Below, one piece after another: positions 1 to 31,057 of a stretch of 64,000 nucleotides of DNA. The position numbers and the translations under genes are program-made. Numbering within the stretch: position 1 is the first letter of the stretch; every line of letters begins with the position of its first letter. Under the pieces are notes generated by a model. It was not told the DNA's origin and made no database searches. It saw nothing but the letters and a program-made list of their open reading frames with translations. This stretch comes from Xanthostigma xanthostigma (lineage: Eukaryota > Arthropoda > Insecta > Raphidioptera > Raphidiidae), in NCBI GenBank assembly GCA_963575645.1, contig OY754467.1:7812001-7876000 (forward strand). Reading direction: 5' to 3'.

Positions 1-1341
1 TTTTGCAAAACTGCAACTTTTTAAGACACTAAACGCCTTTTGGACCGTTCTATACTAACCGTACTTATAGAAAATTTCAAGCTGAATCGATTCCGACCAT
101 CCGCAACCCCGTATCACTTTTAGTTTTGGAGATATGAGCGTTTATTCATATTATTAGAAAAAAACTTAAAAACGCTGTAACTTCTAAACGACTAAAGATA
201 CGGAGGTGGGAGTGGGCGGAATCTATTCAGCGGGATTTTTTATATAAGAATAACCTCAGTTGTAAGTCGTTTGCAAACAATATGACAGTGATTTTTGGTT
301 TTTTTTTAAATTGGAAAAAGTAAGAAGGGGGGACCCTTCTTACAAAATTGGAAAATTTTCGAAAAATAAATTCGTCTGATATCGTGCATACTTATAGAAA
401 AAGTCATTCTGAATCGATTCCGACCACCCGCAACCTTGTATCTCTTTTGGTTTCGGAGATATGGCCAATTTTAACTGTTTAATTTTTTTTACATTTTAAA
501 CCGTCATAGCGTCTAAACTAAGAGAGATACGAATGTGCGCTTGGTCCCATTCGATTCAGCGTACTTTTTTCTATAAGACACGTTACTATTAAGCATATTT
601 GAAAAAATTATATATTTTGCCAAATATCGCAAAACTTTCATGTTTTCATATGCGTTTTGCAAAACTGCAACTTTTTAAGACACTAAACGCCTTTTGGACC
701 GTTCTATACTAACTGTACTTATAGAAAATTTCAAGCTGAATCGATTCCGACCATCCGCAACCCCGTATCACTTTTAGTTTCGGAGATATGAGCGTTTATT
801 CATATTATTAGAAAAAAACTTAAAAACGCTGTAACTTCTAAACGACTAAAGATACGTAGGTGGGAGTGGGCGGAATCGATTCAGCGCGATTTTTTCTATA
901 AGAATAACCTCAGTTGTAAGTCGTTTGCAAACAATATGACAGTGATTTTTGGATTTTTTTAAAATTGGAAAAAGTAAGAAGGGGGGACCCTTCTTACAAA
1001 ATTGGAAAATTTTCGAAAAATAAATTCGTTTGATATCGTGCATACTTATAGAAAAAGTCATTCTGAATCGATTCCGACCACCCGCAACCTTGTATCTCTT
1101 TTGGTTTCGGAGATATGGCCAATTTTAGCTGTTTAATTTTTTTTACATTTTAAACCGTCATAGCGTCTAAACTAAGAGAGATACGAATGTGCGCTTGGTC
1201 CCATTCGATTCAGCGTACTTTTTTCTATAAGACACGTTACTATTAAGCATATTTGAAAAAATTATATATTTTGCCAAATATCGCAAAACTTTCATGTTTT
1301 CATATGCGTTTTGCAAAACTGCAACTTTTTAAGACACTAAA

Positions 1342-2550
1342 TATTCAAAGCAATGGCACGTCAGTCCGGTGTCGGAGAGGCAACCGGATGGCGAGTGGTA
1401 ATCTGGGCCTATGAGTGGTACAGAACCCCCTGGTAGCGGCCAAAGTGACCCCAAATGGACGGGGGCGGCGATATGGGGGTGGGGCAAAATCGAAAAATGT
1501 TTGAAAAGGCAACCGGATAAAAATGCGGTTGCATTGAAGGAAATACCCTAATTATATAATAAATTTTTTTTGCCATCCGAACCACACGGGCCATTTTTGC
1601 ACTAGCGAATAAAAAAAAAATTAAAAAAAAACTGAAAAGGCAACCGCTTCAAAATTAGTGAGCATACTTATTGACACCACCAAACGTTGGAAAAAAATTG
1701 CCATCCGATCCTGATGGGCAGTTTCGGAGAAACAACCCCTCAAAGTCACAGAAAAACCCTTTTTTTCGATTTTTTCAACAATAAGTAAAAAAAACACACT
1801 AAACATTGTTCAAATCGGATGGCATTCGAAATTTATACTGTCCTAAGTACATATAATAGTGTGTATCAATGCCATCCGATTTAGATTAAATTTACCCCTA
1901 TTTAGCCAACCCCCAAAACTCAATAACAATAAAAATAATGCCATACGCTGCATAAAATTGTTATTTTCATGAGTTTTGGGAGATGGCTAAATAGGGGTAA
2001 ATTTAATCTAAATCGGATGGCATTGATACACACTATTATTTGTACTTAGGACAGTATAAATTTCGAATGCCATCCGATTTGAACAATGTTTAGTGTGTTT
2101 TTTTTACTTATTGTTGAAAAAATCGAAAAAAAGGGTTTTTCTGTGACTTTGAGGGGTTGTTTCTCCGAAACTGCCCATCAGGATCGGATGGCAATTTTTT
2201 TCCAACGTTTGGTGGTGTCAATAAGTATGCTCACTAATTTTGAAGCGGTTGCCTTTTCAGTTTTTTTTTAATTTTTTTTTTATTCGCTAGTGCAAAAATG
2301 GCCCGCGTGGTTCGGATGGCAAAAAAAATTTATTATATAATTAGGGTATTTCCTTCAATGCAACCGCATTTTTATCCGGTTGCCTTTTCAAACATTTTTC
2401 GATTTTGCCCCACCCCCATATAGCCGCCCCCGTCCATTTGGGGTCACTTTGGCCGCTACCAGGGGGTTCTGTACCACTCATAGGCCCAGATTACCACTCG
2501 CCATCCGGTTGCCTCTCCGACACCGGACTGACGTGCCATTGCTTTGAATA
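1342..2550. mobile_element. 1209-bp near-perfect palindromic (foldback) element inserted in the satellite
   Basis: The element begins TATTCAAAGCAATGGCAC and ends with its reverse complement. The two arms are about 580 bp each and run to a small loop near 1935-1965. By eye they differ at only a few sites, for example near 1469, 1588 and 1853. It interrupts one 654-bp monomer; removing 1209 bp plus a 3-bp AAA duplication (1339-1341 and 2551-2553) restores a monomer of exactly 654 bp. No transposase is encoded: the only frames are short mirror-image ones of 61 codons. Both arms are studded with GCCATCCG and GGCAACCGG motifs in both orientations. It is a non-autonomous foldback or MITE-like element of unassigned superfamily. 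Confidence 0.93.
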
Positions 2551-5500
2551 AAACGCCTTTTGGATCGTTCTATACTAACCGTACTTATAGAAAATTTCAA
2601 GCTGAATCGATTCCGACCATCCGCAACCCCGTATCACTTTTAGTTTCGGAGATATGAGCGTTTATTCATATTATTAGAAAAAAACTTAAAAACGCTGTAA
2701 CTTCTAAACGACTAAAGATACGGAGGTGGGAGTGGGCGGAATCGATTCAGCGCGATTTTTTATATAAGAATAACCTCAGTTGTAAGTCGTTTGCAAACAA
2801 TATGACAGTGATTTTTGGATTTTTTTAAAAATGGAAAAAGTAAGAAGGGGGGACCCTTATTACAAAATTGGAAAATTTTCGAAAAATAAATTCGTTTGAT
2901 ATCGTGCATACTTATAGAAAAAGTCATTCTGAATCGATTCCGACCACCCGCAACCTTGTATCTCTTTTGGTTTCGGAGATATGGCCAATTTTAACTGTTT
3001 AATTTTTTTTACATTTTAAACCGTCATAGCGTCTAAACTAAGAGAGATACGAATGTGCGCTTGGTCCCATTCGATTCAGCGTACTTTTTTCTATAAGACA
3101 CGTTACTATTAAGCATATTTGAAAAAATTATATATTTTGCCAAATATCGCAAAACTTTCATGTTTTCATATGCGTTTTGCAAAACTGCAACTTTTTAAGA
3201 CACTAAACGCCTTTTAGACCGTTCTATACTAACCGTACTTATAGAAAATTTCAAGCTGAATCGATTCCGACCATCCGCAACCCCGTATCACTTTTAGTTT
3301 CGGAGATATGAGCGTTTATTCATATTATTAGAAAAAAACTTAAAAACGCTGTAACTTCTAAACGACTAAAGATACGGAGGTGGGAGTGGGCGGAATCGAT
3401 TCAGCGCGATTTTTTATATAAGAATAACCTCAGTTGTAAGTCGTTTGCAAACAATATGACAGTGATTTTTGTTTTTTTTTTTAATTGAAAAAGTAAGAAG
3501 GGGGGACCCTTCTTAAAAAATTGGAAAATTTTCGAAAAATAAATTCGTCTGATATCGTGCATACTTATAGAAAAAGTCATTCTGAATCGATTCCGACCAC
3601 CCGCAACCTTGTATCTCTTTTGGTTTCGGAGATATGGCCAATTTTAACTGTTTAATTTTTTTTACATTTTAAACCGTCATAGCGTCTAAACTAAGAGAGA
3701 TACGAATGTGCGCTTGGTCCCATTCGATTCAGCGTACTTTTTTCTATAAGACACGTTACTATTAAGCATATTTGAAAAAATTATATATTTTGCCAAATAT
3801 CGCAAAACTTTCATGTTTTCATATGCGTTTTGCAAAACTGCAACTTTTTAAGACACTAAACGCCTTTTGGATCGTTCTATACTAACCGTACTTATAGAAA
3901 ATTTCAAGCTGAATCGATTCCGACCATCCGCAACCCCGTATCACTTTTAGTTTCGGAGATATGAGCGTTTATTCATATTATTAGAAAAAAACTTAAAAAC
4001 GCTGTAACTTCTAAACGACTAAAGATACGGAGGTGGGAGTGGGCGGAATCGATTCAGCGCGATTTTTTATATAAGAATAACCTCAGTTGTAAGTCGTTTG
4101 CAAACAATATGACAGTGATTTTTGGATTTTTTTAAAAATGGAAAAAGTAAGAAGGGGGGACCCTTATTACAAAATTGGAAAATTTTCGAAAAATAAATTC
4201 GTTTGATATCGTGCATACTTATAGAAAAAGTCATTCTGAATCGATTCCGACCACCCGCAACCTTGTATCTCTTTTGGTTTCGGAGATATGGCCAATTTTA
4301 ACTGTTTAATTTTTTTTACATTTTAAACCGTCATAGCGTCTAAACTAAGAGAGATACGAATGTGCGCTTGGTCCCATTCGATTCAGCGTACTTTTTTCTA
4401 TAAGACACGTTACTATTAAGCATATTTGAAAAAATTATATATTTTGCCAAATATCGCAAAACTTTCATGTTTTCATATGCGTTTTGCAAAACTGCAACTT
4501 TTTAAGACACTAAACGCCTTTTAGACCGTTCTATACTAACCGTACTTATAGAAAATTTCAAGCTGAATCGATTCCGACCATCCGCAACCCCGTATCACTT
4601 TTAGTTTCGGAGATATGAGCGTTTATTCATATTATTAGAAAAAAACTTAAAAACGCTGTAACTTCTAAACGACTAAAGATACGGAGGTGGGAGTGGGCGG
4701 AATCGATTCAGCGCGATTTTTTATATAAGAATAACCTCAGTTGTAAGTCGTTTGCAAACAATATGACAGTGATTTTTGTTTTTTTTTTTAATTGAAAAAG
4801 TAAGAAGGGGGGACCCTTCTTAAAAAATTGGAAAATTTTCGAAAAATAAATTCGTCTGATATCGTGCATACTTATAGAAAAAGTCATTCTGAATCGATTC
4901 CGACCACCCGCAACCTTGTATCTCTTTTGGTTTCGGAGATATGGCCAATTTTAACTGTTTAATTTTTTTTACATTTTAAACCGTCATAGCGTCTAAACTA
5001 AGAGAGATACGAATGTGCGCTTGGTCCCATTCGATTCAGCGTACTTTTTTCTATAAGACACGTTACTATTAAGCATATTTGAAAAAATTATATATTTTGC
5101 CAAATATCGCAAAACTTTCATGTTTTCATATGCGTTTTGCAAAACTGCAACTTTTTAAGACACTAAACGCCTTTTGGACCGTTCTATACTAACCGTACTT
5201 ATAGAAAATTTCAAGCTGAATCGATTCCGACCATCCGCAACCCCGTATCACTTTTAGTTTCGGAGATATGAGCGTTTATTCATATTATTAGAAAAAGACT
5301 TAAAAACGCTGTAACTTCTAAACGACTAAAGATACGGAGGTGGGAGTGGGCGGAATCGATTCAGCGCGATTTTTTCTATAAAAATAACCTCAGTTGTAAG
5401 TCGTATGCAAACAATATGACAGTGATTTTTGGATTTTTTTAAAATTGGAAAAAGTAAGAAGGGGGGACCCTTCTTACAAAATTGGAAAATTTTCGAAAAA

Positions 5501-8500
5501 TAAATTCGTTTGATATCGTGCATACTTATAGAAAAAGTCATTCTGAATCGATTCCGACCACCCGCAACCTTGTATCTCTTTTGGTTTCGGAGATATGGCC
5601 AATTTTAACTGTTTAATTTTTTTTACATTTTAAACCGTCATAGCGTCTAAACTAAGAGAGATACGAATGTGCGCTTGGTCCCATTCGATTCAGCGTACTT
5701 TTTTCTATAAGACACGTTACTATTAAGCATATTTGAAAAAATTATATATTTTGCCAAATATCGCAAAACTTTCATGTTTTCATATGCGTTTTGCAAAACT
5801 GCAACTTTTTAAGACACTAAACGCCTTTTGGACCGTTCTATACTAACCGTACTTATAGAAAATTTCAAGCTGAATCGATTCCGACCATCCGCAACCCCGT
5901 ATCACTTTTAGTTTCGGAGATATGAGCGTTTATTCATATTATTAGAAAAAAACTTAAAAACGCTGTAACTTCTAAACGACTAAAGATACGGAGGTGGGAG
6001 TGGGCGGAATCGATTCAGCGCGATTTTTTATATAAGAATAACCTCAGTTGTAAGTCGTTTGCAAACAATATGACAGTGATTTTTGTTTTTTTTTTTAATT
6101 GAAAAAGTAAGAAGGGGGGACCCTTCTTAAAAAATTGGAAAATTTTCGAAAAATAAATTCGTCTGATATCGTGCATACTTATAGAAAAAGTCATTCTGAA
6201 TCGATTCCGACCACCCGCAACCTTGTATCTCTTTTGGTTTCGGAGATATGGCCAATTTTAACTGTTTAATTTTTTTTACATTTTAAACCGTCATAGCGTC
6301 TAAACTAAGAGAGATACGAATGTGCGCTTGGTCCCATTCGATTCAGCGTACTTTTTTCTATAAGACACGTTACTATTAAGCATATTTGAAAAAATTATAT
6401 ATTTTGCCAAATATCGCAAAACTTTCATGTTTTCATATGCGTTTTGCAAAACTGCAACTTTTTAAGACACTAAACGCCTTTTGGACCGTTCTATACTAAC
6501 CGTACTTATAGAAAATTTCAAGCTGAATCGATTCCGACCATCCGCAACCCCGTATCACTTTTAGTTTCGGAGATATGAGCGTTTATTCATATTATTAGAA
6601 AAAGACTTAAAAACGCTGTAACTTCTAAACGACTAAAGATACGGAGGTGGGAGTGGGCGGAATCGATTCAGCGCGATTTTTTCTATAAAAATAACCTCAG
6701 TTGTAAGTCGTATGCAAACAATATGACAGTGATTTTTGGATTTTTTTAAAATTGGAAAAAGTAAGAAGGGGGGACCCTTCTTACAAAATTGGAAAATTTT
6801 CGAAAAATAAATTCGTTTGATATCGTGCATACTTATAGAAAAAGTCATTCTGAATCGATTCCGACCACCCGCAACCTTGTATCTCTTTTGGTTTCGGAGA
6901 TATGGCCAATTTTAACTGTTTAATTTTTTTTACATTTTAAACCGTCATAGCGTCTAAACTAAGAGAGATACGAATGTGCGCTTGGTCCCATTCGATTCAG
7001 CGTACTTTTTTCTATAAGACACGTTACTATTAAGCATATTTGAAAAAATTATATATTTTGCCAAATATCGCAAAACTTTCATGTTTTCATATGCGTTTTG
7101 CAAAACTGCAACTTTTTAAGACACTAAACGCCTTTTGGATCGTTCTATACTAACCGTACTTATAGAAAATTTCAAGCTGAATCGATTCCGACCATCCGCA
7201 ACCCCGTATCACTTTTAGTTTCGGAGATATGAGCGTTTATTCATATTATTAGAAAAAAACTTAAAAACGCTGTAACTTCTAAACGACTAAAGATACGGAG
7301 GTGGGAGTGGGCGGAATCGATTCAGCGCGATTTTTTATATAAGAATAACCTCAGTTGTAAGTCGTTTGCAAACAATATGACAGTGATTTTTGGATTTTTT
7401 TAAAAATGGAAAAAGTAAGAAGGGGGGACCCTTATTACAAAATTGGAAAATTTTCGAAAAATAAATTCGTTTGATATCGTGCATACTTATAGAAAAAGTC
7501 ATTCTGAATCGATTCCGACCACCCGCAACCTTGTATCTCTTTTGGTTTCGGAGATATGGCCAATTTTAACTGTTTAATTTTTTTTACATTTTAAACCGTC
7601 ATAGCGTCTAAACTAAGAGAGATACGAATGTGCGCTTGGTCCCATTCGATTCAGCGTACTTTTTTCTATAAGACACGTTACTATTAAGCATATTTGAAAA
7701 AATTATATATTTTGCCAAATATCGCAAAACTTTCATGTTTTCATATGCGTTTTGCAAAACTGCAACTTTTTAAGACACTAAACGCCTTTTGGACCGTTCT
7801 ATACTAACCGTACTTATAGAAAATTTCAAGCTGAATCGATTCCGACCATCCGCAACCCCGTATCACTTTTAGTTTCGGAGATATGAGCGTTTATTCATAT
7901 TATTAGAAAAAAACTTAAAAACGCTGTAACTTCTAAACGACTAAAGATACGGAGGTGGGAGTGGGCGGAATCTATTCAGCGGGATTTTTTATATAAGAAT
8001 AACCTCAGTTGTAAGTCGTTTGCAAACAATATGACAGTGATTTTTGGTTTTTTTTTAAATTGGAAAAAGTAAGAAGGGGGGACCCTTCTTACAAAATTGG
8101 AAAATTTTCGAAAAATAAATTCGTCTGATATCGTGCATACTTATAGAAAAAGTCATTCTGAATCGATTCCGACCACCCGCAACCTTGTATCTCTTTTGGT
8201 TTCGGAGATATGGCCAATTTTAACTGTTTAATTTTTTTTACATTTTAAACCGTCATAGCGTCTAAACTAAGAGAGATACGAATGTGCGCTTGGTCCCATT
8301 CGATTCAGCGTACTTTTTTCTATAAGACACGTTACTATTAAGCATATTTGAAAAAATTATATATTTTGCCAAATATCGCAAAACTTTCATGTTTTCATAT
8401 GCGTTTTGCAAAACTGCAACTTTTTAAGACACTAAACGCCTTTTGGACCGTTCTATACTAACTGTACTTATAGAAAATTTCAAGCTGAATCGATTCCGAC

Positions 8501-9057
8501 CATCCGCAACCCCGTATCACTTTTAGTTTCGGAGATATGAGCGTTTATTCATATTATTAGAAAAAAACTTAAAAACGCTGTAACTTCTAAACGACTAAAG
8601 ATACGTAGGTGGGAGTGGGCGGAATCGATTCAGCGCGATTTTTTCTATAAGAATAACCTCAGTTGTAAGTCGTTTGCAAACAATATGACAGTGATTTTTG
8701 GATTTTTTTAAAATTAGAAAAAGTAAGAAGGGGGGACCCTTCTTACAAAATTGGAAAATTTTCGAAAAATAAATTCGTTTGATATCGTGCATACTTATAG
8801 AAAAAGTCATTCTGAATCGATTCCGACCACCCGCAACCTTGTATCTCTTTTGGTTTCGGAGATATGGCCAATTTTAGCTGTTTAATTTTTTTTACACTTT
8901 AAACCGCCATAGCGTCTAAACTAAGAGAGATACGAATGTGCGCTTGGTCCCATTCGATTCAGCGTACTTTTTTCTATAAGACACGTTACTATTAAGCATA
9001 TTTGAAAAAATTATATATTTTGCCAAATATCGCAAAACTTTCATGTTTTCATATGCG

Positions 9058-9711
9058 TTTTGCAAAACTGCAACTTTTTAAGACACTAAACGCCTTTTGG
9101 ATCGTTCTATACTAACCGTACTTATAGAAAATTTCAAGCTGAATCGATTCCGACCATCCGCAACCCCGTATCACTTTTAGTTTCGGAGATATGAGCGTTT
9201 ATTCATATTATTAGAAAAAAACTTAAAAACGCTGTAACTTCTAAACGACTAAAGATACGGAGGTGGGAGTGGGCGGAATCGATTCAGCGCGATTTTTTAT
9301 ATAAGAATAACCTCAGTTGTAAGTCGTTTGCAAACAATATGACAGTGATTTTTGGATTTTTTTAAAAATGGAAAAAGTAAGAAGGGGGGACCCTTATTAC
9401 AAAATTGGAAAATTTTCGAAAAATAAATTCGTTTGATATCGTGCATACTTATAGAAAAAGTCATTCTGAATCGATTCCGACCACCCGCAACCTTGTATCT
9501 CTTTTGGTTTCGGAGATATGGCCAATTTTAACTGTTTAATTTTTTTTACATTTTAAACCGTCATAGCGTCTAAACTAAGAGAGATACGAATGTGCGCTTG
9601 GTCCCATTCGATTCAGCGTACTTTTTTCTATAAGACACGTTACTATTAAGCATATTTGAAAAAATTATATATTTTGCCAAATATCGCAAAACTTTCATGT
9701 TTTCATATGCG
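9058..9711. repeat. Satellite monomer with the paralogous empty site of the palindrome
   Basis: This monomer is the same variant type as the interrupted one at 1309-3174: it has GGATCG after the junction, an AAAAATGG tract and CCCTTATTAC. It is preceded by the same neighbour types. Its junction at 9085-9094 reads ACTAAACGCC without any insertion. It therefore shows the pre-insertion sequence and supports the AAA target duplication. Confidence 0.85.
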
Positions 9712-12700
9712 TTTTGCAAAACTGCAACTTTTTAAGACACTAAACGCCTTTTGGACCGTTCTATACTAACCGTACTTATAGAAAATTTCAAGCTGAATCG
9801 ATTCCGACCATCCGCAACCCCGTATCACTTTTAGTTTCGGAGATATGAGCGTTTATTCATATTATTAGAAAAAAACTTAAAAACGCTGTAACTTCTAAAC
9901 GACTAAAGATACGGAGGTGGGAGTGGGCGGAATCGATTCAGCGCGATTTTTTATATAAGAATAACCTCAGTTGTAAGTCGTTTGCAAACAATATGACAGT
10001 GATTTTTGTTTTTTTTTTTAATTGAAAAAGTAAGAAGGGGGGACCCTTCTTAAAAAATTGGAAAATTTTCGAAAAATAAATTCGTCTGATATCGTGCATA
10101 CTTATAGAAAAAGTCATTCTGAATCGATTCCGACCACCCGCAACCTTGTATCTCTTTTGGTTTCGGAGATATGGCCAATTTTAACCGTTTAATTTTTTTT
10201 ACATTTTAAACCGTCATAGCGTCTAAACTAAGAGAGATACGAATGTGCGCTTGGTCCCATTCGATTCAGCGTACTTTTTTCTATAAGACACGTTACTATT
10301 AAGCATATTTGAAAAAATTATATATTTTGCCAAATATCGCAAAACTTTCATGTTTTCATATGCGTTTTGCAAAACTGCAACTTTTTAAGACACTAAACGC
10401 CTTTTGGACCGTTCTATACTAACCGTACTTATAGAAAATTTCAAGCTGAATCGATTCCGACCATCCGCAACCCCGTATCACTTTTAGTTTCGGAGATATG
10501 AGCGTTTATTCATATTATTAGAAAAAAACTTAAAAACGCTGTAACTTCTAAACGACTAAAGATACGGAGGTGGGAGTGGGCGGAATCGATTCAGCGCGAT
10601 TTTTTCTATAAGAATAACCTCAGTTGTAAGTCGTTTGCAAACAATATGACAGTGATTTTTGTTTTTTTTTTTAATTGAAAAAGTAAGAAGGGGGGACCCT
10701 TCTTAAAAAATTGGAAAATTTTCGAAAAATAAATTCGTCTGATATCGTGCATACTTATAGAAAAAGTCATTCTGAATCGATTCCGACCACCCGCAACCTT
10801 GTATCTCTTTTGGTTTCGGAGATATGGCCAATTTTAACTGTTTAATTTTTTTTACACTTTAAACCGTCATAGCGTCTAAACTAAGAGAGATACGAATGTG
10901 CGCTTGGTCCCATTCGATTCAGCGTACTTTTTTCTATAAGACACGTTACTTTTAAGCATATTTGAAAAAATTATATATTTTGCCAAATATCGCAAAACTT
11001 TCGTGTTTTCATATGCGATTTGCAAAACTGCAACTTTTTAAGACACTAAACGCCTTTTGGACCGTTCTATACTAACCGTACTTATACAAAATTTCAAGCT
11101 GATTCGATTCCGACCATCCGCAACCCCGTATCACTTTTAGTTTCGGAGATATGAGCGTTTATTCATATTATTAGAAAAAAACTTAAAAACGCTGTAACTT
11201 CTAAACGACTAAAGATACGGAGGTGGGAGTGGGCGGAATCGATTCAGCGCGATTTTTTATATAAGAATAACCTCAGTTGTAAGTCGTTTGCAAACAATAT
11301 GACAGTGATTTTTGGATTTTTTTAAAATTGGAAAAAGTAAGAAGGGGGGACCCTTCTTACAAAATTGGAAAATTTTCGAAAAATAAATTCGTTTGATATC
11401 GTGCATACTTATAGAAAAAGTCATTCTGAATCGATTCCGACCACCCGCAACCTTGTATCTCTTTTGGTTTCGGAGATATGGCCAATTTTAACTGTTTAAT
11501 TTTTTTTACATTTTAAACCGCCATAGCGTCTAAACTAAGAGAGATACGAATGTGCGCTTGGTCCCATTCGATTCAGCGTACTTTTTTCTATAAGACACGT
11601 TACTATTAAGCATATTTGAAAAAATTATATATTTTGCCAAATATCGCAAAACTTTCGTGTTTTCATATGCGATTTGCAAAACTGCAACTTTTTAAGACAC
11701 TAAACGCCTTTTGGATCGTTCTATACTAACCGTACTTATAGAAAATTTCAAGCTGAATCGATTCCGACCATCCGCAACCCCGTATCACTTTTAGTTTCGG
11801 AGATATGAGCGTTTATTCATATTATTAGAAAAAAACTTAAAAACGCTGTAACTTCTAAACGACTAAAGATACGGAGGTGGGAGTGGGCGGAATCGATTCA
11901 GCGCGATTTTTTCTATAAGAATAACCTCAGTTGTAAGTCGTTTGCAAACAATATGACAGTGATTTTTGGATTTTTTTAAAATTGGAAAAAGTAAGAAGGG
12001 GGTACCCTTCTTACAAAATTGGAAAATTTTCGAAAAATAAATTCGTTTGATATCGTGCATACTTATAGAAAAAGTCATTCTGAATCGATTCCGACCACCC
12101 GCAACCTTGTATCTCTTTTGGTTTCGGAGATATGGCCAATTTTAACTGTTTAATTTTTTTTACACTTTAAACCGTCATAGCGTCTAAACTAAGAGAGATA
12201 CGAATGTGCGCTTGGTCCCATTCGATTCAGCGTACTTTTTTCTATAAGACACGTTACTTTTAAGCATATTTGAAAAAATTATATATTTTGCCAAATATCG
12301 CAAAACTTTCGTGTTTTCATATGCGATTTGCAAAACTGCAACTTTTTAAGACACTAAACGCCTTTTGGACCGTTCTATACTAACCGTACTTATACAAAAT
12401 TTCAAGCTGATTCGATTCCGACCATCCGCAACCCCGTATCACTTTTAGTTTCGGAGATATGAGCGTTTATTCATATTATTAGAAAAAAACTTAAAAACGC
12501 TGTAACTTCTAAACGACTAAAGATACGGAGGTGGGAGTGGGCGGAATCGATTCAGCGCGATTTTTTCTATAAGAATAACCTCAGTTGTAAGTCGTTTGCA
12601 AACAATATGACAGTGATTTTTGGATTTTTTTAAAATTGGAAAAAGTAAGAAGGGGGTACCCTTCTTACAAAATTGGAAAATTTTCGAAAAATAAATTCGT

Positions 12701-14287
12701 TTGATATCGTGCATACTTATAGAAAAAGTCATTCTGAATCGATTCCGACCACCCGCAACCTTGTATCTCTTTTGGTTTCGGAGATATGGCCAATTTTAAC
12801 TGTTTAATTTTTTTTACATTTTAAACCGCCATAGCGTCTAAACTAAGAGAGATACGAATGTGCGCTTGGTCCCATTCGATTCAGCGTACTTTTTTCTATA
12901 AGACACGTTACTATTAAGCATATTTGAAAAAATTATATATTTTGCCAAATATCGCAAAACTTTCGTGTTTTCATATGCGATTTGCAAAACTGCAACTTTT
13001 TAAGACACTAAACGCCTTTTGGACCGTTCTATACTAACCGTACTTATAGAAAATTTCAAGCTGAATCGATTCCGACCATCCGCAACCCCGTATCACTTTT
13101 AGTTTCGGAGATATGAGCGTTTATTCATATTATTAGAAAAAAACTTAAAAACGCTGTAACTTCTAAACGACTAAAGATACGGAGGTGGGAGTGGGCGGAA
13201 TCGATTCAGCGCGATTTTTTCTATAAGAATAACCTCAGTTGTAAGTCGTTTGCAAACAATATGACAGTGATTTTTGGATTTTTTTAAAATTGGAAAAAGT
13301 AAGAAGGGGGTACCCTTCTTACAAAATTGGAAAATTTTCGAAAAATAAATTCGTTTGATATCGTGCATACTTATAGAAAAAGTCATTCTGAATCGATTCC
13401 GACCACCCGCAACCTTGTATCTCTTTTGGTTACATAGATATGGCCATTTTTAACTGTTTCATTTTTTTTACACTTTAAACCGTCATAGCGTCTAAACTAA
13501 GAGAGATACGAATGTGCGCTTGGTCCCATTCGATTCAGCGTACTTTTTTCTATAAGACACGTTACTATTAAGCATATTTGAAAAAATTATATATTTTGCC
13601 AAATATCGCAAAACTTTCATGTTTTCATATGCGTTTTGCAAAACTGCAACTTTTTAAGACACTAAACGCCTTTTGGACCGTTCTATACTAACCGTACTTA
13701 TAGAAAATTTCAAGCTGAATCGATTCCGACCATCCGCAACCCCGTATCACTTTTAGTTTCGGAGATATGAGCGTTTATTCATATTATTAGAAAAAAACTT
13801 AAAAACGCTGTAACTTCTAAACGACTAAAGATACGGAGGTGGGAGTGGGCGGAATCGATTCAGCGCGATTTTTTCTATAAGAATAACCTCAGTTGTAAGT
13901 CGTTTGCAAACAATATGACAGTGATTTTTGGATTTTTTTAAAATTGGAAAAAGTAAGAAGGGGGTACCCTTCTTACAAAATTGGAAAATTTTCGAAAAAT
14001 AAATTCGTTTGATATCGTGCATACTTATAGAAAAAGTCATTCTGAATCGATTCCGACCACCCGCAACCTTGTATCTCTTTTGGTTACATAGATATGGCCA
14101 TTTTTAACTGTTTAATTTTTTTTACACTTTAAACCGTTATAGCGTCTAAACTAAGAGAGATACGAATGTGCGCTTGGTCCCATTCGATTCAGCGTACTTT
14201 TTTCTATAAGACACGTTACTTTTAAGCATATTTGAAAAAATTATATATTTTGCCAAATATCGCAAAACTTTCGTGTTTTCATATGCG

Positions 14288-14866
14288 ATTTGCAAAACTG
14301 CAACTTTTTAAGACACTAAACGCCTTTTGGACCGTTCTATACTAACCGTACTTATACAAAATTTCAAGCTGATTCGATTCCGACCATCCGCAACCCCGTA
14401 TCACTTTTAGTTTCGGAGATATGAGCGTTTATTCATATTATTAGAAAAAATCTTAAAAACGCTGTAACTTCTAAACGACTAAAGATACGGAGGTGGGAGT
14501 GGGCGGAATCGATTCAGCGCGATTTTTTATATAAGAATAACCTCAGTTGTAAGTCGTTTGCAAACAATATGACAGTGATTTTTGGATTTTTTTAAAATTG
14601 GAAAAAGTAAGAAGGGGGTACCCTTCTTACAAAATTGGAAAATTTTCGAAAAATAAATTCGTTTGATATCGTGCATACTTATAGAAAAAGTCATTCTGAA
14701 TCGATTCCGACCACCCGCAACCTTGTATCTCTTTTGGTTTCGGAGATATTATTAGAAAAAAACTTAAAAACGCTGTAACTTCTAAACGACTAAAGATACG
14801 GAGGTGGGAAAGGTCGGAATCGATTTAGCGCGATTTTTTCTATAAGAATAACCTCAGTTGTAAGTA
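14288..14866. repeat. Terminal, rearranged satellite monomer at the right array edge
   Basis: The last copy follows the monomer up to the GAGATAT of its second half (about 14749). It then jumps into the first half of the repeat at TATTAGAAAAA, skipping about 16 bp of the expected first-half sequence. It continues for about 115 bp with extra substitutions (for example GGGAAAGGTCGG instead of GGGAGTGGGCGG) and stops at about 14866, where unrelated sequence begins. This looks like recombination between the two related half-units at the array boundary. Confidence 0.8.
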
Positions 14867-16680: not shown

Positions 16681-16918
16681 ATAAGGTAGGCAAATGTTGA
16701 CCATGGCCTTGAATAAGGAACCATCTCGATATTTATCTGGAATTAATGAGAGAAACCATGGAAAACCTCAACAAGATGGCCGGTACAAGAGTTACCGTTT
16801 CTTGGCGAGAGGCAGCAGGAAAAAGTCCCCAGCCTTATGTGCCCCCGCCGGGATTCGAACCCAGTACTTCCCGAATGCGAGTCCAGTGGTCTCACCAGTA
16901 CACCACCTCGCTCGGTAG
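16680..16918 (-). mobile_element. tRNA-derived SINE
   Basis: On the minus strand, about 16916-16839 is a tRNA-like head. It has an A-box-like GGTGGTGTACTGG, an anticodon-like arm GGACTCGCATTCGGG (CGC, as in tRNA-Ala) and a perfect B box GGTTCGAATCC. The tRNA-unrelated body follows, with the words TTTCCATGGTTTCTC and GATGGTTCCTTATTCAAGGC, which resemble the conserved tail of widespread insect SINEs. The outer limits are approximate. Short frames on both strands cover it but are shadows of the SINE. Confidence 0.75.
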
Positions 16919-16968
16919 AAGCGTCACTATGTTCAGGTATAATATTGAGATGGCGTCGTTTCAAGACA

Positions 16969-26430: not shown

Positions 26431-26837
26431 TAATTAATTAATTTACAAAAACAAAAGCAATAATAAATTTTTTAGTTGTCGATGTCAGTAGAGCAAGCAA
26501 TTATCTGTAAAATGATATATAATTTATGTGGAGAAATTGTGTGGTTTTTTCTAAAAAGGGAGGCAAACATCTTTAACCTTAGCGTATTAATATATATGAT
26601 TCTTTGGCATCTTATAAGAACGTTTTGGTTTTTTATTAAGTCGCGTTTCGTGAATGTCGGACGAAACTTTGTAATTGATTTTAAACTAACTTCCTGATGA
26701 GATAGAGACTTGAAAAATTTAACATAACTCAAAATTAGATAACAATACGATAAAATATTAAAATAAAGAAGAAAATAATAATAAACACAATTAATTCATT
26801 CTTACTTATTTATCGTTGTAAGGCATTTAGCAATCGT

Positions 26838-26910
26838 CGTTCATAGCTCAGTTGGTTAGAGCGTCGTGCTAATAACGCGAAGGTCGCGAGTTCGATTCCC
26901 CTATGGGCCA
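26838..26910 (+). tRNA. tRNA-Ile (AAT), degenerate, probably a pseudogene
   Basis: The D arm (GCTC AGTTGGTTA GAGC), the anticodon arm (TCGTG CTAATAA CGCGA, anticodon AAT) and the 3' ATGGGCCA are those of eukaryotic tRNA-Ile. Defects are visible. The 5' acceptor strand is CGTTCAT, giving a C-C mismatch and two G-T pairs. One of the two bases between the acceptor and D stems is missing. The T stem GCGAG/CCCCT has two mismatches. The B box is GAGTTCGATTCC instead of the usual GGTTCGATCCC. It is either a tRNA relic or the head of a tRNA-derived repeat. Confidence 0.65.
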
Positions 26911-26948
26911 TATAATATTTTTATTTTTTTTTACGATGTGTTTTTGTT

Positions 26949-29483: not shown

Positions 29484-30718
29484 CTAACGGTTATGTAATA
29501 TATTTTGGTAAGTTTGTGTATGGTTTTGTAGTAGCCAGTGTATAATATGTTTTTTGAACCTATTGATGCCCGTAATCGATTTTATGTCCAGTGGCAAGTT
29601 GTTGTACATTTTGGGAGCCAGGTAGCTAAAATGATTTTGGCCGAACGTTTTTGCCTTCTTGGGGACTTGGATATCTTGGTGCAGTCTGGATCTGGTTTCA
29701 TAGGAATGTTGAATAGGGATACGTAGAGAGGATTTGCGGTGATAGTGAATAAGAATAGTTTTTAGGTAAAGTTGATATACCTATATTTAACACCTGAAAG
29801 TCATGATACAGTTTTGAAGATGGGTACATGTATGGTTTTTTAAGGATGATTCGGATAAGAATTTTCTGGATGTTTTGGACAGGGGCTAGGATAGTTTTGA
29901 AAGTACCTCCCCACGCGATTATGCCGTATGTCAGTAGTGATTGGCAAAGAGCAAAGTATACTGTCCTTAAGTTGAGTTCAGTCATGTAATGTCTAAGCGT
30001 CGAGAATATATAGATGAGTTTTCGCATTCGATTTGTCAAAGTCTGTATGTGCACATCCCACTTCAGTCTGTAGTCTATTGTAACACCAAGATATTTGATA
30101 TTTTTGACGTTTGTTATTGGCGCACAATTACAGGTAAGGTGGTCATCACATTTGTGCAGTCGTAGTTGTAGGTTCGTCGGTTGTCCTGTTATATTGGCAC
30201 TAAAAGTTATGTATTTCGTCTTTGTTATGTTCAAAGTCAGTAGGTTGTTGTTAAGCCATCTATATATTTTCGTCATTTGTTTTTCTGCTCCAGCCATTGT
30301 CTCGTCCCAGGTAGATCCAGAGAAATACAGTACAGTGTCATCAGCGTATGATAATATCAGTCCATCAGTGTTCATGTTACACAGGCCGTTGACGTATAGT
30401 AAGAATAGAATTGGTCCAAGAACTGTGCCCTGTGGAACACCAAAACTGATGGAGCGTCCCGAACTCTGCACTGTACCAACTCTAGTGGTCTGTGTCCTGT
30501 CAGTCAAGTAGCTTTCAAACCATTTGAAAGGTACGTCACGGATACCAATGTTGGAAAGTTTTTGGAGGAGGATTTTGTGGGAGACTGTATCAAATGCTTT
30601 CGCTAAGTCCAGAAATACTGCCAAACTTTTTTTGTCGTTGTCTATGTCAGTGGTGATAATTTCAGTCAGTCTGGCAAGCGCATCATTGGTCGATCTGTTT
30701 TGTCGAATTATGCTTAGT
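29484..30718 (-). pseudogene. Reverse transcriptase of retrotransposon A (truncated, frameshifted)
   Basis: This is an RNA-dependent DNA polymerase of a non-LTR retrotransposon, Jockey/CR1/Rex1-like. Motifs in order on the minus strand are: RQNRSTNDALARLTEI; palm A, FLDLAKAFDTVSH; motif B, GVPQGTVLGPILFLLYVNG; the catalytic YADDTVLYFSG; LTLNITKTKYITF; and thumb IKYLGVTIDYRLKWDVHI. After LYHDFQVLNI, near 29770, the frame shifts by one base and resumes as LYLKTILIHYHRKSSLR. It continues through FGQNHFSYLAPKMYNNLPLD to a stop at 29484. The endonuclease domain is missing at the 5' end. With the truncation and frameshift it cannot be active. The first residues of the long open frame (30719-30792) belong to element B. 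Confidence 0.9.
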
Positions 30719-31057
30719 ACAAGAAAGAGAAAATCTGTTTTTATGCTTTTGTATATAGCACAGAGAAAAATAAATGTATATTGAAGGAACAATTAAAATG
30801 TGATGTTTCACAAAATACTCCTTACAACTATCTCTAAATCCAAGATTAAATATGGTTCTAATGGCTTTTTTCTGCAGCAAAAAAATTCTATTGATTGCGG
30901 AGGAGCTACAGCCCCAAAACATGATTCCAAATTTGACGTGTTGGAAGAAATATGCATAATAAGTGGTTAGGTCTAAATTAAGATCATAGCAACTATGATG
31001 AATTTTCCGCAGAGCAAATAAAGATCTTGCTAGCTTAGAACTTAAGTTGGAAATGTG
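30719..31057 (-). pseudogene. Upstream part of non-LTR retrotransposon B (reverse transcriptase C-terminal region)
   Basis: The minus-strand frame reads HISNLSSKLARSLFALRKI, then TTYYAYFFQHVKFGIMFWGC, INRIFLLQKKAIRTIFNLG, and finally YIYFSLCYIQKHKNRFSLSC up to the junction with A. These are the post-palm blocks of Jockey-superfamily reverse transcriptases ('LS.kLa.a.faLr', 'YyA.f.shl.YGi..WG', 'if.lQKkaiR.i', 'y...fK...iLtvpslYiy'). The rest of the frame continues at 29099-28897. The palm with YADD is absent, so this copy is 5'-truncated. Confidence 0.82.

Follow-up and report, generated by a model that had tools for sequence, protein, structure and literature searches.

A near-perfect palindrome inside a satellite monomer

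The window, by which we mean the whole 64,000-nucleotide stretch of Xanthostigma xanthostigma DNA analysed here, opens with a satellite array, one 653/654-bp monomer of which is interrupted by a palindromic element. The features of this locus are listed below in window coordinates, with the strand where one applies.

1..14865: host satellite array; each 653/654-bp period comprises two diverged halves of ~327 bp
1339..1341: target-site duplication (TSD) AAA, left copy
1342..2550: whole palindromic element, 1209 bp; termini and length class as in 48 copies of 1150-1250 bp
1342..1359, plus strand: terminus TATTCAAAGCAATGGCAC, present in 930 exact copies in the genome
1342..1922, plus strand: left arm (terminal inverted repeat, TIR), 581 nt
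1379..1878: left-arm region containing repeated 8-mers, putative protein-binding sites, mirrored in the right arm
1923..1969: asymmetric loop, 47 nt, with 0-3 differences among all subfamilies
1970..2550, minus strand: right arm, an inverted copy of the left arm, 581 nt with 5 mismatches
2551..2553: target-site duplication AAA, right copy

The arms of this copy are 99% complementary over 581 nt and lie 47 nt apart, with their five mismatches at arm positions 129, 245, 511, 568 and 570. As the arms account for 1162 of its 1209 bp, the copy is nearly all inverted repeat, which bears out the near-perfect palindrome of the preliminary description. When folded as single-stranded DNA it forms essentially one hairpin, at -749.2 kcal/mol (a value that stands without a shuffled control at such length). 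At 40.0%, the G+C content of the element exceeds that of the window (34.2%), and its terminus starts TATTC. Elsewhere in the window there are 20 intact GACACTAAACGCC junctions, which serve as empty sites and demonstrate that AAA was duplicated upon insertion, as had been proposed.

No coding capacity was detected among the open reading frames of at least 40 aa that overlap the element, the longest of which is 61 aa, and a Pfam scan of three of the 12 element frames matched no family. Both results agree with the earlier statement that nothing recognisable is encoded. Short repeats are present within the arm: GCCATCCG occurs on either strand at arm positions 44, 231, 359, 475 and 530, and GGCAACCG at arm positions 38, 167 and 298. 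One 8-mer occurring five times in the arm was reached by only 1 of 1000 shuffles, but the repeated 8-mers are not conserved above other columns (as good a result came from 122 of 566 shifted masks). Since they exceed the shuffled sequences yet show no extra conservation, a protein-binding role for them is a guess.

A dispersed family with fixed 3-bp target-site duplications

The genome search for further copies that the preliminary description had suggested proved productive. In the 623-Mb assembly (28 contigs), the 18-nt terminus has 467 exact copies in forward and 463 in reverse orientation, giving the total of 930, while the reversed control pattern has none on either strand. An exact 21-nt pattern had no match in viral and prokaryotic contig collections, as expected for a eukaryotic element. 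Copies were read from twelve contigs and accepted for the duplication count if each end could be placed with no more than three mismatches; nine fetched loci without an acceptable end pair (one end mutated, truncated or out of reach) were set aside. All 52 distinct copies that remained carry an exact 3-bp target duplication between differing flanks, and the fourth base beside the duplication agrees in only one of them. Pooled over strands, the duplications are TAA/TTA in 20 copies, ATA/TAT in 12, AAA/TTT in eight and others in 12, a weak yTWAr preference.

To pair the ends, the first 100 termini listed were used, all of them on contig C1. These gave 37 inverted pairs and 26 unpaired ends. Of the pairs, 31 span 1180-1215 bp and two span 1150-1179 bp; three are shorter (686, 821 and 866 bp) and one is longer (4592 bp). 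Short copies of the family lack parts of one arm. The long copy (L071, C1:44299300-44304500, at 44.30 Mb), the only exact-terminus pair among the first 100 listed to exceed the family length, is a copy of the family into which a non-LTR retrotransposon, with reverse transcriptase and endonuclease domains, has inserted. It was therefore rejected as an autonomous partner, and, being the sole long copy read, it gives no sign that the palindrome belongs to a larger known element, the outcome that would have overturned the preliminary description. At another C1 locus (L075, C1:37477000-37479000), a tandem duplication of the left flank and of roughly the first 250 bp of the element precedes a complete copy.

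Long-read assembly has a known weakness with palindromes, and read-through of a single arm could be taken for one. Since termini by the hundred are dispersed through the genome, with flanks that are unique and 3-bp duplications that are exact, and since the copies share an asymmetric loop, we regard the chance of such an artefact as negligible.

The family has defined ends, a 3-bp duplication, a dispersed high copy number and no detected coding capacity. Inverted terminal repeats with precise ends and a target duplication of fixed length are hallmarks of a cut-and-paste TIR DNA transposon, and inverted repeats that make up nearly the whole of a non-coding element are those of a foldback or long-TIR transposon. 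The palindrome is thus very probably a non-autonomous foldback-type (long-TIR, MITE-like) cut-and-paste DNA transposon that is moved in trans and whose arms are kept alike by patchy copying. In the mechanism we envisage, a DDE/D-type transposase supplied by another element would bind the ends and move the element by cut-and-paste in trans, making cuts with a 3-bp stagger at yTWAr targets, which are weakly palindromic. The palindrome would then persist through patchwise copying of sequence from arm to arm, either by gene conversion within or between copies or by template switching at a hairpin or cruciform, and subfamilies that spread thereafter would bear the same change in both arms.

Superfamily assignment and the search for a transposase

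The length of the duplication excludes foldback elements with 8-10 bp duplications as well as TA elements. A 3-bp duplication, with the fourth base matching in a single copy, differs from the 8-10 bp of Drosophila FB, Mutator or hAT foldbacks, and the TA duplication of Tc1/mariner elements is absent from the 52 copies. This upholds the earlier assertion that the duplication is neither TA nor 8-9 bp, as it is exactly 3 bp throughout.

Duplications of 3 bp are made by both PIF/Harbinger and CACTA elements. PIF/Harbinger termini usually begin with a G-rich end, and CACTA-type termini begin CACT. A non-autonomous PIF/Harbinger element with a TWA-like target is possible but unlikely: the duplication length and the weak TWA preference (TAA/TTA in 20 of 52 copies) are consistent with this assignment, as are 151 DDE_Tnp_4 (PF13359) matches in the genome, recorded as positions only, but 32 of the 52 duplications are not TAA/TTA and the TATTC start is unlike the usual G-rich end. 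In addition, none of the eight listed DDE_Tnp_4 matches on C1 below 48.6 Mb has a listed exact terminus within 10 kb (judged by eye, in a small part of the genome).

Tc4 of Caenorhabditis elegans consists almost entirely of inverted repeat around a short loop and makes a 3-bp duplication at a strict TNA target; its common form is non-coding and a rare variant is coding. Our family resembles Tc4 in being almost all inverted repeat, in its short loop, in its 3-bp duplication and in being non-coding, and 150 scored DDE_1 (PF03184) matches are present in the genome. It differs in its loose target, with ATA/TAT, AAA/TTT and others among the 52 duplications where strict TNA would be expected, in its terminus, and in that a coding variant was not found. 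Moreover, 30 of the 150 DDE_1 loci were read and gave only short A/T-rich matches to the arm (best E 7e-4 over 25 nt), and none of five DDE_1 matches on C1 below 48.6 Mb lies within 10 kb of a listed terminus (by eye, in this part of the genome). We therefore consider a non-autonomous pogo-related element of Tc4/Tc5 type, for all its architectural similarity, to be improbable.

Membership of Zator, AcademX, a CMC-type group or an undescribed superfamily with 3-bp duplications has a chance somewhat short of even, although for the CMC-type group the CACT start is unlike the terminus seen here. The terminus matched no known one, and in the section of the source cited, TSDs of 3 bp are given for Zator, the length found here, and of 3-4 bp for AcademX (PMC10045372). 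A search with PF07592 (ISAzo13-like, Zator-related) gave no match in the genome but also none in control genomes, and is uninformative.

The preliminary description had looked towards a transposase gene sharing the terminus. In this it was disappointed, as the PF07592, PF03184 and PF13359 searches, which were of limited reach, linked no autonomous partner to the terminus. A pattern designed for termini whose sequence departs from the family's beyond base 15 matched two places, both family members with small changes. A looser terminus pattern matched 15 places without mismatch, most of which were judged from their letters to be family copies, together with a recurrent TATTCAAAGCCATGGCCGATTAC type. 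This type appears to come from the 3' part of a tRNA-derived SINE like the one at window 16690-16930, where the minus strand shows a SINE-like body and a tRNA-like head that includes a B-box-like GGTTCGAATCC; the resemblance of the SINE 3' part to the element terminus is probably due to chance. Contig C10 contains, at ~8.6-16.4 Mb, a megabase domain rich in listed DDE_1 (pogo-type) and DDE_Tnp_4 (Harbinger-type) matches (uncounted). This domain is transposon-dense and perhaps non-recombining.

Arm symmetry across copies

We aligned both arms of 48 full-length copies, of which 39 were mostly best matches to the window copy and nine came from the exact-terminus listing. The two arms of a copy show a mean of 6.0 differences (median 5.5, range 0-21), compared with 10.4-10.7 between arms taken from different copies. 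For the 49 variants present on at least two arms, there are 151 instances in which both arms of a copy carry the variant, against a permuted mean of 56.5 and maximum of 76, although the permutation disregards shared descent and so overstates independence. With A/T runs masked, nine private variants occur on the two arms of the same copy and 81 are confined to a single arm (11 and 93, respectively, before masking); by a hand estimate, independent mutation would give well under one double private variant. At seven sites the haplotype is equal on both arms in 41 of the 48 copies, compared with a shuffled mean of 8.5 and maximum of 18, a test that is illustrative rather than independent because the sites were picked as mostly symmetric in the same data.

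Among 40 variants found in at least two copies, nine are mostly symmetric, 20 are never symmetric and 11 are mixed, suggesting that copying between the arms is incomplete. One-arm variants at arm positions 144, 304, 440 and 511 keep to one side of the loop throughout (7, 12, 10 and 16 copies, respectively), and those at positions 407 and 409 to the opposite side (14 copies each). Crossing-over between the arms would mix the sides, yet these variants stay on one side, and so loop inversion is not visible. A single asymmetric loop is common to all subfamilies, which favours a single origin of the palindrome. Because symmetric and asymmetric sites coexist within the same copies, symmetry seems to be restored in patches; for the same reason, whole-arm resetting, in which one event renders the arms identical, is ruled out as the only mechanism.

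The alternative is that this is a foldback transposon whose arms are alike merely through youth, or through repeated formation from differing single-arm ancestors, without any arm-to-arm copying. Part of the sampled copies are indeed very young: the median difference to the nearest neighbour is 1.5 per ~1134 bp among the 48 copies, most of which were picked as best query matches, and for some the nearest neighbour shows zero differences. The 20 shared variants never found on both arms also fit this explanation. It accounts poorly, however, for subfamilies whose symmetric states differ although their loop and side-specific variants are the same, and for the nine private variants on both arms of one copy, and we consider it improbable. 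The window copy itself is not among the youngest: 13 positions separate it from its closest sampled relative, against five between its own arms. This difference, together with a sharing between arms far above permutation, supports arm-to-arm copying.

The preliminary description had presented youth and hairpin-templated repair as alternatives. Both halves hold in part, as some copies are very young and arm-to-arm copying is supported, but the choice between them does not, and the hairpin-templated route is only one possible form of the copying. The data would be fitted equally well by gene conversion inside one element, by conversion from a different copy and by template switching at a hairpin. 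A more far-reaching proposal is that the terminus TATTCAAAGCAATGGCAC denotes an undescribed transposase group among elements with 3-bp duplications and, at the same time, that arm copying is intrinsic to the element cycle, for example as hairpin-templated synthesis in excision or gap repair. New subfamilies would then be symmetric from birth. We think it unlikely that both parts are true.

Comparison with known elements

Searches of the literature for foldback elements with 3-bp duplications, and for Tc4/Tc5, gave no match, and among the papers listed for the string TATTCAAAGC all were unrelated by title, which does not establish its absence from print. In the P superfamily, to which the foldback-like Galileo of Drosophila belongs, target duplications are 7 bp, longer than the 3 bp seen here. 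The part of the Galileo paper drawn on here describes long TIRs, non-coding TIR-only copies and subfamilies, all of which our family shares; Galileo TIRs are, however, internally repetitive and variable in length, whereas the palindrome family is of near-constant length (PMC3573991). Recombination and conversion of the TIRs were proposed by its authors (PMC3573991, same part). Tetris of Drosophila virilis is likewise a non-autonomous foldback linked to satellite DNA for which, in the part of the source cited, an autonomous copy was not found, but it makes 8-10 bp duplications and is ascribed to Mutator (PMC4079207). Tetris supplies satellite units, whereas the palindrome merely resides within a satellite (PMC4079207, same part). 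The Tm1 Mutator/foldback family of root-knot nematodes is also of the foldback class but, according to the paper's title, is ascribed to Mutator, unlike our family.

Outside transposons, template switching has been proposed to maintain RNA stems (PMC8794818, as given in part of that text). As in the palindrome, both sides of the stem change together, but that case concerns RNA genes with short stems and ours a 581-nt transposon arm (PMC8794818, same part). Copying from arm to arm is therefore not a new idea, having been put forward for both Galileo (PMC3573991) and RNA stems (PMC8794818) in the parts cited. Transposons that are nearly palindromic have been described before, as have 3-bp duplications and conversion between arms, so the palindrome family adds a new member to a general type already known; in other respects it is a selfish element of an ordinary sort. 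Its interesting parts are the concerted arms and a terminus without a superfamily name. The family constitutes a natural data set on how long palindromes stay symmetric: with hundreds of dispersed, near-identical copies and side-specific markers beside a fixed loop, conversion could be separated from crossing-over and its rate measured.

Two further features lie elsewhere in the window. A 364-aa open reading frame on the minus strand (29698-30792) contains a reverse transcriptase domain (PF00078, E 1.5e-27), and a tRNA-Ile with anticodon AAT is predicted on the plus strand at 26837-26911.
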